Both the position numbers and the translations under genes were made by a program. 64,000 bases of DNA from Massilia sp. 9096 (GTDB taxonomy: Bacteria; Pseudomonadota; Gammaproteobacteria; Burkholderiales; Burkholderiaceae_D), in contig NZ_JQNN01000001.1 of the NCBI RefSeq assembly GCF_000745265.1, positions 2,232,001 to 2,296,000 of the forward strand, given 5' to 3'. The notes beneath the pieces were generated by a model, which searched no databases, was not told the DNA's origin, and saw only the letters and a list, made by a program, of their open reading frames with translations. Below are positions 8,445 to 63,493 of the stretch, in pieces; positions within the stretch are counted from its first letter, which is position 1, and each line of letters starts with the position of its first letter.

Positions 8445-8816
8445 TCAATCGACGGTGGTCACGTCGACACGATCCGGATAGAACGCCAGGTGGTTGGCGA
8501 TCGGGGCCACCGCGTCGTGGGGATGCTCGTAGGTCCACACCGCGTTTTCGCCGCGCGCGCCGGCCGAGGGGATGCTGAAGTAATTACAGTCGCCCTTGTA
8601 CGGGCAATAGGTGGTGTGCTGGCTGCGGATCAGCAGGTCCATCTGCACGTCCGCGCGCGGGATGTACAGCACGGCCGGGTAAGCAGCTTCCTTGAGCGAC
8701 AGCGCGTGGCGGGTGTCGGCGACGACGGTCTCGCCGAGGGTCACCATGACGCGCTTGGCGGACGGCATGACGGCGATCGGGTGATCCGGACCCGGCACTT
8801 TGACGATTTTGTCCAT
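8445..8816 (-). CDS. DUF427 family protein
   Basis: A 123-residue cytoplasmic protein of the DUF427 (PF04248) family. The family signature is visible: YPAVLYIPRADV (about residues 45-57), HTTYCPYKGDCNYFS (about 66-81), and VWTYEHPHDAVAPIANHLAFYPD (in part, about 94-115). The biochemical function of DUF427 is not established. The start ATG at 8816 has AAAGGAG upstream. The open frame extends to 9365, but that extension lies antisense-frame over the neighbouring gene and has no leader. It lies 86 bp downstream of the LexA-boxed gene and could be in the same transcript. Confidence 0.85.
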   Translation of the reverse strand: MDKIVKVPGPDHPIAVMPSAKRVMVTLGETVVADTRHALSLKEAAYPAVLYIPRADVQMDLLIRSQHTTYCPYKGDCNYFSIPSAGARGENAVWTYEHPHDAVAPIANHLAFYPDRVDVTTVD

Positions 8817-8902: not shown

Positions 8903-9217
8903 TCACACCGGGCGCGCAATGTCCGGCAGCGGCCAGTCCAGCAAGGCCGCGACGCGCCGCACGACCCAGCGCAGCAAGGGCGGCTCGCCCCAGCCGAGCG
9001 CCTCGACCAGGCGATAGGATTTGAGCAGGATGTCGACCGGGCGCACCGAGCGGTCGCTTTCCGCCTGCACGCGCGCGCATTCGCCCGCCAGGTGCAGCGC
9101 CAGCTCCTCGCAGACATTCCAGTCCAGGCAGCGGTTCGAAGGCGTGCCGCCGGCTTCCTGCGGAAAATCGAGCGGAACGGTGGTGTAGTCCGCCGCTGTC
9201 GTATTTTGTGTGCTCAT
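8903..9217 (-). CDS. Small unknown protein, predicted SOS-regulated (copy 1)
   Basis: A 104-residue protein I do not recognise. It has no signal peptide or membrane segment. The core is helical-looking, with the conserved block NRCLDWNVCEELALHLAGEC (about residues 28-47), then DRSVRPVDILLKSYR and a tail WPLPDIARPV. A close paralogue is encoded at 63124-63471, and invariant residues are concentrated from residue 28 onward. A near-perfect LexA box lies at 9255-9274, centred about 47 bp upstream of the ATG. A DNA-damage role is therefore inferred from regulation only. No toxin, nuclease or cell-division inhibitor motif is visible. Confidence 0.75.
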   Translation of the reverse strand: MSTQNTTAADYTTVPLDFPQEAGGTPSNRCLDWNVCEELALHLAGECARVQAESDRSVRPVDILLKSYRLVEALGWGEPPLLRWVVRRVAALLDWPLPDIARPV

Positions 9218-9254
9218 GCCCCACTTCTCGTCGATAACCGGATAGTGGACATAA

Positions 9255-9274
9255 TACTGTATAGATGTACAGTA
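9255..9274. promoter_or_regulatory. LexA (SOS) box
   Basis: TACTGTATAGATGTACAGTA is an almost perfect palindrome and contains CTGT-N8-ACAG, the proteobacterial LexA operator consensus. It lies between the divergent genes starting at 9217 (minus) and 9412 (plus). On the minus strand TATACA within it could serve as a -10 element, so LexA would block RNA polymerase directly. The same arrangement is seen at 63474-63493. Confidence 0.8.
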
Positions 9275-9411: not shown

Positions 9412-12400
9412 ATGCCGCCCGCTTTGTCACCGCCCTCCCCTTACCGTTCTCCTCATTTACCCATGCGCGACACCCGGCCGTCCAGCCCCCGTCAAGACCT
9501 GCAGGACATCGTCGATGCCTGCGCGGCGATCATCTGGATGGCCGACCCCGCCGGCGTGTGCACCTACCTCAATCCCGACGCCGCGCAGCGCCTCTCGAGC
9601 GGCAGCGGCGCGGTCACGGTCGACGACTGGTCCGCGTTCGTGCACGAGGACGACTGGGGTGCCATCCGCGATCTGCTGAGGCAAGAACGGCGCGGCCAGC
9701 GCGAGTACAAGGTCGAGTACCGCCTCAGGAAGTCCTGCGGCGCGGTGCGCTGGGTGCTCGAGAGCGCGGCGCCACGCTTCAACCAGGCCGGCGCCTTCGA
9801 AGGGCACGTGGGCAGCATCGTCGACATCAGCGCGCACAAGAGCGCGATCGACTCGCTGGCCAGGAGCGAGGCGCAATACCGCCTGCTGGCCGAAAACAGC
9901 AGCGACCTGATCGCCCACCTCGACGCGGACGGCCGCTACGTCTACATCTCGCCTTCGTACGCGGTCATCCTCGGCTACACGCTCGAGGAGCTGCGGCACC
10001 GGCACGCCTACGACGTGGTGTACCCGCATGACGTCGACCTGATCCGCGCCGACGTGGACTGCCAACTGCGCGACGGCGCCGCGGCCCAGGCGCTCGAGAT
10101 CCGCAAGCGCACCAAGGGCGGCGCGTACCAATGGTTTTCGGTGAAGGTCAAGGTCATGCTCGAGCCCGGCACCCGGCGCAAACTGGGCTCGATCATCGTC
10201 TGCACCAGCATCGAAGCGCAGAAGGCGGCCCAGGATGCGCTGCAGGCGCACATGCTGCGGCTGGAAAGCTGGGCGCTGGTCTCGACCGACCTGATCTGGG
10301 AAGTCGACCTGCGCACCGGCACCGTCTGGCGCAGCGTCCAGGCCAGGGCCCTGTACGACCTCAAGTCGGACACGACGCGGCTGTCCGATCGCAGCTGGGA
10401 AGAGCGCGTCCATCCCGACGACAGCGCCTGGGTCATCCCCGGCTTCCTGCGGCTGCTGGACGGCAGCGTCGAGCGCTGGCAGGCCGAATACCGGCTGCGC
10501 CTGCCCGACGGCTACTACACGCACGTGTTCGACAAGGGGGCCGGGATCCGCGACCGCGACGGCCGGCTGGTCTCGGTGGTCGGCAGCTTCATCGACCTGG
10601 CCGAGCACAAGAAGACCGAGATCGAGCTGTCGCGCCTGAACCGCGCGCTGAACCTGCGCAGCGCCTGCAGCCAGCTGCTGGTGCGCGTCAAGGACCGCCA
10701 CGAACTGCTCGACGGCATCTGCCGGCTGGCGCGCAACGTGGGCGGCTACATCAATGCCTGGGCCGGCTTCGCCGACGACGACGCCGGCAAGCACGTGCGC
10801 GTAGCCGCCAGCTCGGCCAACGCGGCCGACGCTTCGCTGTTGCGCGACATGGAGATCAGCTGGGACGCCGACGCACCCGGCGGCACTGGCCTCGGTCCGG
10901 CCGGCGTGGCGATCCGGACCGGCACCGTGCAGGTGATCGAGAATATCGACCGCTCGCCCGCATTCGACCGCTGGCGCGCCGTCGCCGAGCGGTTCGGCGG
11001 CAGGGCGGTGATCTGCCTGCCGCTCAAGGACGAAGGCCGCACCACCGGCGTCATGTCGCTGTACGCCAGCGAGCCGCGCCGGCCGTCGGAGGACGAGTTC
11101 CAGCTGCTGCAGGCGCTGGCCGACGAGCTCAGTTTCGGCATCGCCCACCTGCGCGTCCAGGCCGAGAAGGGACGCATGCGCGCGGCCGTCGCGACGCTGG
11201 CGGCGGGCGTCTCGTCGCATACCGATCACCGGTTTTTCGAACAGGTCGCGGTCCACATGGCGGAAGCGGTCAACGCCGATGCCGCCTTCATCTCGCTGTT
11301 CTCGCCGGCCTCGCAGCAGGGCGAGATCGTCACCGCCGTGGTGCACGGCCAGGTCATCGGCGGCTTCGCCTATGCGCTCGCGGGCACGCCCTGCGCGGCG
11401 ATGTTCGCCAGCCCGGTCTGCGTGGTGAACGACGGCCTGGTCGAGCGATTTCCGAACACCCGCTCGTTCGGCGCGGCCTCGTTCCAGGCCTGCGTCGGCG
11501 CGCGCCTGGAAAACAGCGCCGGCGAGTTGATCGGTTCGGTCTTCGCGCTCTACGAGAGCAAGATCTCGGACACCGACCTGATCGAATCGAGCATGCGCAT
11601 CTTCAGCGCGCGCGTGGCTTCCGAGCTGGCCAACATGCAGCACATCGCCAGGATCCGCTCGCTGGCGTATCACGACCAGCTGACCGGCCTGCCCAACCGC
11701 CAGGCGCTGCTCGAACGCCTCGAACACGACATCGGCGGCGCCACGCCCGCGCGCGCGCAGGGCGCCCTGCTGTTCATCGACCTGGACAATTTCAAGGCCC
11801 TCAACGACACGCGCGGGCACGATATCGGCGACCAGCTGCTGCAGCAGGTGGCGCAGCGCCTGCGCGCCAGCGTCCAGGGCGGCGACCTGGTCGCGCGGCT
11901 CGGCGGCGACGAATTCGTGGTCCTGCAGAGCAGCGCCGGCGAGTCCGCCGACGCCACGCGCCAGGTGGCGTGCGCGCTGGCCGAAGGCATCCGCGCGCGC
12001 TTGAGCGAGCCCTACCAGATCGGTTCCTACCAGCACCACACCACGCCCAGCATCGGCATCGTCCTGTTTTCCGACGAAGACATGACCGTCAGCGAAACGC
12101 TGAAACGCGCCGACGTGGCGATGTACCGCGCCAAGGGCATGGGCAAGAACCGCATCTGCCTGTTCGATCCGGTCATGCAAAGCGAGATGCTGGAACGCGC
12201 GCAGCTCGAATCGGACTTCCGCGACGCGCTGGCCGGCGGCCAGTTCACGCTCGAGTACCAGCCGCAGATGCACGCGCAGCGCGGCGTGTTCGGGCTTGAG
12301 GCGCTGGTGCGCTGGCGCCATCCGCACAAGGGCCTGGTCGCGCCTGGCAAATTCATTCCGTTTGCCGAAGAGTCGGGGCTGATCGTGCCGCTCGGCCTGT

Positions 12401-63123: not shown

Positions 63124-63471
63124 TCAAAGCGGTCGTGCAATATCCGGCGCCGGCCAGTTCAACAAGGATGCAACACGCCGCACCACCCTTCTCAGTAAGG
63201 GCGGGTCGCCCCAGCCCAGGGACTCGACCACGCGATACGATTTCAACAGGATGTCCACTGGCCGCACGGACCGGTCTGCCTCAACCAAGAGCCGGGCGCA
63301 CTCGCCGGCAAGGTGCAAGGCCAATTCTTCGCATACATTCCAGTCCAGGCAGCGGTTCAGGAAAGTCGCGTCTGTTTGGTGAGGAAAGTCGACGGGAACG
63401 GCGGTATAGTCCGTACCCGTTTCGCGTTGTGTACCCGTGCCACTTCTCGTCAATAAGCCAATAGTGGACAT
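63124..63471 (-). CDS. Small unknown protein, predicted SOS-regulated (copy 2)
   Basis: A 115-residue protein, paralogous to that at 8903-9217. The block NRCLDWNVCEELALHLAGEC is identical in both, and the tail WPAPDIARPL differs at two of ten positions. The LexA box (63474-63493) lies directly upstream of the ATG. The codon matching copy 1's ATG is ACG here, so this copy must start upstream: ATG 63471, only 3 bases from the box and near or at the likely transcription start, or a TTG at codon 7. Translation may thus be leaderless or weak. Function is unknown. Confidence 0.65.
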   Translation of the reverse strand: MSTIGLLTRSGTGTQRETGTDYTAVPVDFPHQTDATFLNRCLDWNVCEELALHLAGECARLLVEADRSVRPVDILLKSYRVVESLGWGDPPLLRRVVRRVASLLNWPAPDIARPL

Positions 63472-63473
63472 GA

Positions 63474-63493
63474 TACTGTATAAACGTACAGCC
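63474..63493. promoter_or_regulatory. LexA (SOS) box
   Basis: TACTGTATAAACGTACAGCC contains CTGT-N8-ACAG. It is at the same place relative to the paralogue as the box at 9255-9274, and the flanking 20-30 bases are also alike, so gene and operator were duplicated together. Confidence 0.75.

Follow-up and report, generated by a model that had tools for sequence, protein, structure and literature searches.

A small gene of Massilia sp. 9096 that is probably under LexA control, and its place in an unnamed family of predicted helical proteins

A 64,000-nucleotide stretch of the Massilia sp. 9096 genome (contig NZ_JQNN01000001.1, positions 2,232,001 to 2,296,000; hereafter the window) carries, at positions 8903-9217 on the minus strand, a gene for a 104-residue protein, P0001, which is very probably under LexA control, judging from the operator sequence in front of it and the recurrence of that operator in front of its close copies. 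On balance we favor a reading in which this gene is a LexA-regulon member belonging to a small paralogous family, whose product is a damage-timed protein-binding effector and perhaps restrains growth, division, or replication. LexA would repress the gene, DNA damage would release it through RecA-stimulated LexA cleavage, and P0001 would then act by binding another protein, its most likely role being to hold back growth, division, or replication during repair.

The operator, TACTGTATAGATGTACAGTA (9255-9274), is a perfect palindrome over the outer seven bases of each side. It was scored with a matrix built from eight boxes of the same genome, which themselves range from 22.0 to 26.5 bits and precede lexA, imuA, dnaE2, dinB, ruvC, a uvrD-type helicase gene, parE, and a repair-type radical-SAM gene; the XerC-like and PA0069 boxes were left out. 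The matrix sites were picked by pattern and are to that extent circular, while their position before canonical SOS genes is not. In a ranking of the window by this matrix, TACTGTATAGATGTACAGTA comes first at 27.2 bits and TACTGTATAAACGTACAGCC (63474-63493) second at 21.6 bits, and the third site reaches only 9.9 bits; the maximum over 100 simulated 64-kb first-order Markov windows was 15.7 bits. The bare pattern CTGT-N8-ACAG with up to one mismatch occurs in the window about as often as chance predicts (17 observed, 15.9 expected) and is therefore not relied on here as evidence. Exact matches to the pattern number only two in the window, and both are the family sites at 9255 and 63474. The proposal of the sequence-only reading that a near-perfect LexA box precedes this small gene is thus borne out by the score, by three boxed paralogues, and by the box at every close copy examined. 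The distance of 38 bp given there is off by one, as the box does lie upstream but 37 bases separate it from the ATG (9217-9215) of the open reading frame, whose stop codon ends at 8903.

Across the 5.71 Mb of the genome, TACTGTAYANNNNTACAG with at most one mismatch gives 26 matches, several places being entered once per strand, against one match for the reversed pattern. The open reading frames were read at 18 box loci, of which ten hold a recognizable gene: lexA, imuA, an error-prone DnaE-type polymerase, DNA polymerase IV, ruvC, a uvrD/pcrA-type helicase, parE, a PA0069-family radical-SAM protein, a UDG-linked radical-SAM protein, and a XerC-like recombinase. These names come from NCBIfam, with the polymerase, helicase, parE, and recombinase falling below curated cut-offs, in the first three cases because the loci cut these genes. 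The lexA gene (L010; TIGR00498, E 2e-71) carries its own box, TACTGTACAAAAATACAG. One further locus holds the third paralogue of the P0001 gene, and the remaining seven show no recognized SOS-type gene, so that the motif alone is no proof of regulon membership.

All three paralogues in this genome are preceded by an exact CTGT-N8-ACAG box. Paralogue 2 (63124-63438, minus strand; 75% identical) has ACG where the other copies have ATG, and an in-frame ATG at 63471 lies 2 bp from the box; paralogue 2 may therefore be translated poorly. The third paralogue (68%) is located at C1:4471580. Behind the P0001 gene on the same strand a DUF427 gene had been noted from the sequence, and this assignment holds up (8445-8816, minus strand, 86 bp downstream; PF04248, E 4e-32). 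The idea that the two form one unit was rejected, because DUF427 is absent behind the other two copies of this genome; behind the close copies in genomes G036, G024, G032, and G040 there is a different small gene, not DUF427. The DUF427 gene is thus probably outside the P0001 unit.

Elsewhere in the genus the gene is sparse. A search of 62 genus genomes with P0001 gave matches at E<=0.01 in 23, and the 104-residue kind is found in four of the 62: G000 (three copies), G036 (two), G024, and G032 (one each). The G032 copy has an in-frame TAG, and G040 retains the box in front of a truncated copy. These decaying copies, together with the lost ATG of paralogue 2, show that the 104-residue gene is dispensable. 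The exact box is nevertheless found at all eight places of close copies, that is, all those whose upstream DNA was read, including the two broken genes of G032 and G040, and between most of these places DNA similarity is restricted to the unit of box and gene. Similarity searches also found 43 database proteins resembling P0001, at least one of which is a copy from the Massilia sp. 9096 genome, and a search of named genomes returned four loci, in Massilia sp. Leaf139, Herbaspirillum sp. SJZ107 (two), and a Burkholderiaceae MAG.

In some genomes the conserved unit is longer, running for about 700 bp from just before the box through the 104-residue-type gene (gene A) to the end of a second gene, gene B, which encodes an acidic protein of 87 residues (L076:6124-6387 and L236) with no Pfam match. 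Gene B adjoins gene A at five places in four other genomes (two in G036, one each in G024, G032, and G040); in G040 gene A is truncated and gene B intact, and in G032 both contain a stop. Gene B is present in 10 of the 62 genus genomes and in 9 of 392 genomes of the taxonomic family, all of the same genus (g1). It occurs in all five genomes with gene A or a remnant of it, as compared with 10 of 62 overall (hypergeometric 4e-5, a value that ignores kinship and linkage). The Massilia sp. 9096 genome has one full gene B, which is unlinked and has no box, and none of its three gene A copies has a gene B beside it. A constant partnership of gene B with gene A was therefore rejected as a general feature, gene B being unlinked and boxless here and confined to the genus.

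P0001 matches no family at E<=1 in Pfam, NCBIfam, PHROGs, or PADLOC, in agreement with the original description of a 104-residue protein lacking a recognized domain. The dN/dS values are 0.10-0.17 between the P0001 copy and others (five comparisons) and 0.10-0.29 over all pairs with unsaturated dS (11 of 15). Structure prediction from 60 aligned sequences (mean pLDDT 85, pTM 0.76) places helices at residues 26-53, 60-73, and 79-92 and gives low confidence to the start of the protein. Hydropathy analysis found no membrane segment, the top 19-residue mean being 0.61. P0001 is thus modeled as a soluble three-helix protein without a membrane helix. Comparisons of the predicted fold with the PDB returned weak, generic helical matches only, and neither the fold searches nor the sequence searches with P0001 gave a clue to its function.

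The 104-residue type belongs to a wider family of proteins of about 80-150 residues that has no name and no Pfam entry. The family pattern consists of VPxDFPRP, a GAxxGxQPK hairpin, RWxxCEDLA, and EAxWVxRRVAxxLxWP, and P0001 shares with it the N-terminal DFP motif and the C-terminal CEDLA...WVxRRVAxxLxW helices. Genome searches with P0001 reach distant members at E 3e-10, and comparison of a profile of the P0001 type with one of the other box-bearing types gives E 6e-17. Full-length members, mostly of about 120-150 residues, carry, after the DFP motif and before the helices, a GAxxGxQPKxL...GxFYxPG segment, which is predicted as an additional short two-strand hairpin in the full-length relative P0046 and is missing from the 104-residue type. 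Within the taxonomic family, a family profile finds members in 76 of 392 genomes, spread over 16 of 44 genera. A profile of other box-bearing types matches 9 of 300 genomes of the order, and another profile, searched class-wide, only 4 of 369 genomes, that of Massilia sp. 9096 among them. Further family members compared with Pfam and NCBIfam gave nothing convincing, and PHROGs returned only a match at E 0.5 for paralogue 2.

Profile comparison also connects the family with Comamonad-type proteins, whose C-terminal part is homologous (probability 94.7 against the close family and 98.4 against the full-length family). For one such protein 1544 relatives reach E<=0.001, and among the 120 matches listed several are labeled "ATPase with chaperone activity". 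For this part of the family the database label is doubtful; no Walker A motif (GxxxxGK[ST]) was found in P0001, which thus lends the label no support. Five Comamonad-type relatives that were checked have no box (L220 and L252-L255), while a sixth (L256:1459-1936) has one of 24.3 bits, placed about 110 bp ahead of the probable start of its gene.

Upstream scores separate the family members into two classes. Of 109 unique members, 15 score at least 20 bits, one scores 11.0, and 93 fall below 10; two of the 15 were first recognized by N-terminal fragments and completed from the DNA. L256 stands outside this set, as does L224, a further boxed member at 22.5 bits. The boxed types comprise the 104-residue type, a 78/79-residue type (G003, G005), a type of about 100 residues with the motif "SSIPxDFPRA" (G031, and twice in G155), single 122-residue proteins in G063 and G137, and full-length proteins in G139 and G157. 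A control set of 16,441 windows yielded 122 at 20 bits or more, but these derive from 15 loci with second copies counted; the box is that of a family member at 13 of these loci and that of another SOS-type gene, judged by eye, at the other two (PA0069-type L068 and LexA-like L124). Second copies and true family or SOS boxes among the control windows thus overstate the chance rate, and the simulated windows provide the clean control. On the matter of homologues consistently lacking a box, which the sequence-only reading had named as evidence that would count against it, the outcome is divided: the close copies are boxed throughout, whereas 94 of the 109 members of the wider family score under 20 bits, and the family as such is therefore not an SOS family.

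How the box is distributed over the family was examined on a tree of 96 rows (15 boxed) and 115 columns, from which members with fewer than 66 aligned residues had been dropped. The box label changes five times on this tree, at least four of the changes being forced by starred branches, as compared with an average of 14.2 for shuffled labels; the tree was made by a quick method, 34 of its 93 inner branches are open, and by itself it does not distinguish gain from loss. Boxed rows form four groups on this weakly resolved tree, one of which includes a single boxless row (L158). As 81 rows are boxless, repeated gain of the box would be a simpler reading than loss, and from these upstream sequences we consider it likely that LexA control was acquired more than once in the family. 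The box also goes together with the absence of the hairpin, which, scored by alignment columns, is missing in 13 of 16 boxed rows (L224 added) against 5 of 81 boxless rows (Fisher p 9e-10, kinship ignored). None of the five boxless rows without a hairpin has aligned residues before that part, so that these short rows may only be trimmed. Trimming also affects four of the 13 boxed hairpin-less rows (L001, L002, L003, and L033), and in these the full frames confirm that the segment is missing.

That P0001 is a protein-binding effector appears to us an evenly balanced proposition, and that it brakes growth or division is put forward only tentatively. SulA is a small, LexA-controlled division inhibitor of the SOS response, and P0001 resembles it in being small and in standing behind a LexA box; it lacks PF03846, as it lacks any Pfam family at E<=1. 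The SulA profile PF03846 finds no match anywhere in the genome, which leaves room for a division brake without proving one, and the absence of SulA does not make P0001 its substitute. TisB and HokE are small SOS-induced membrane toxins, from which P0001 differs in having no membrane-spanning stretch by hydropathy. A bolder proposal, which we regard as speculative and improbable as a whole, is that a family of small helical proteins, often located on islands, was captured by LexA several times, and that loss of the N-terminal hairpin released the helical part from the hold of a partner or of the protein itself, shifting control from protein contact to transcription and giving Burkholderiales SOS effectors of a new class that act in a checkpoint or in growth arrest.

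Among the alternatives to a damage-timed effector, the one that survives best, although we think it the lesser possibility, is that P0001 is an island-borne accessory protein of a toxin-antitoxin, defense, or mobility system, that its SOS timing is that of a mobile element, and that the copies found here are domesticated remnants. We surveyed neighbors within 4 kb by phmmer with six query proteins at 46 family ORFs in 42 larger loci, a sample that includes box-bearing ORFs, pieces of broken genes, and two pairs of near-identical islands, and found HAD_SAK_2-type genes near 14 of the 46 ORFs, a query-type integrase near seven, Rep3-like genes near five, and HipA near three; the HAD_SAK_2 identity was upheld by Pfam in the four tested. 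Members beside integrases, HipA, Rep3-like, or HAD_SAK_2 genes include boxless ones. With some relatives in such island-like settings, a toxin, defense, or mobility role is conceivable, and the patchy, multi-copy, and decaying distribution is in keeping with it, as is the association of gene B with gene A. However, around the three copies of the Massilia sp. 9096 genome none of the six query proteins has a match within 4 kb, gene A stands here without gene B, whose full homologue is unlinked and boxless, and gene B does not extend beyond the genus. Neither P0001 nor the full-length P0046 matches any of 50,697 phage records, and P0001 has no match among plasmids; P0046 does match three Paraburkholderia megaplasmids, and no box precedes these three relatives. 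Separately, genomes G024 and G188 share a very similar stretch (L059 and L113) with HipA, a full-length relative, an integrase, and an S8-type gene.

A role as an accessory to DNA repair or translesion synthesis, in which P0001 would for example modulate RecA or ImuAB-DnaE2 or pair with a repair enzyme, is fairly unlikely. SOS timing would suit it, and in another genus a full-length relative (L119:4405-6017) is divergent from imuA-imuB-dnaE2, genes recognized there by eye, with no strong box of its own. The recurrent HAD_SAK_2 neighbors also point in this direction, as Pfam names this domain from RNA-repair proteins. Against a repair role stand the patchy presence and decay of the gene, and the L119 arrangement is the one such neighborhood in 25 loci read by eye.

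The operator might instead serve the divergent PAS-GGDEF-EAL gene on the plus strand (start at 9412 or 9464), with the small gene a bystander. On the plus strand, a pair of sigma70-like hexamers (9246-9273) overlaps the box and faces that gene, which could thus be affected by LexA as well, and no such pair was found on the minus strand at the box. As a replacement for control of the small gene we consider this very improbable, since the box stands before each of the eight close copies, DNA similarity between most of these places is limited to box and gene, and no clear divergent gene is seen before paralogue 2. A chance motif or a non-coding reading frame, to which the chance frequency of the one-mismatch pattern might point, can practically be dismissed, as the score lies far above those of the simulated windows and the conservation of both box and protein, the latter with low dN/dS, already speaks against it.

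Lineage-specific SOS genes are a known kind. A 2012 comparative study (PMC3323433), in the portion consulted, describes hypA and hypB as predicted LexA-controlled hypothetical genes of beta-proteobacteria with several chromosomes, hypA being limited to multi-chromosome species and hypB to Burkholderia, and lists unfB of Vibrio as a lineage-specific SOS gene of hypothetical function. As far as those descriptions go, the P0001 gene is like all three in being a hypothetical gene behind a LexA box in one lineage, and it differs from hypA and hypB, compared here by description only, in belonging to a Massilia-type genome; on the same partial basis the P0001 family may overlap with them. A literature search on Massilia with LexA or the SOS response found no paper, and the other literature searches showed nothing that could be tied to the P0001 family. 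Within the literature searched, the P0001 family and its repeated link to LexA have thus not been described. SOS regulons combine a common repair core with poorly understood lineage-specific additions, and one such addition can be traced here: its boxed and boxless members are sharply separated by score, and loss of the hairpin accompanies LexA control. A single genome offers three paralogues and gave no match to SulA, which makes both the entry of genes into the SOS response and their role there directly testable.

Other box-bearing genes of this genome deserve mention. Two repair-type radical-SAM genes, of the PA0069 family (L009:221-1483) and UDG-linked (L027:252-1559), have LexA-type boxes in front; SOS control of a splB-type gene of beta-proteobacteria is reported in the consulted portion of the comparative study (PMC3323433). 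The start of the XerC-like tyrosine recombinase gene (L005:313-1485, near position 1503083 of C1) lies next to an exact LexA-type box, an arrangement that suggests recombination timed by the SOS response.
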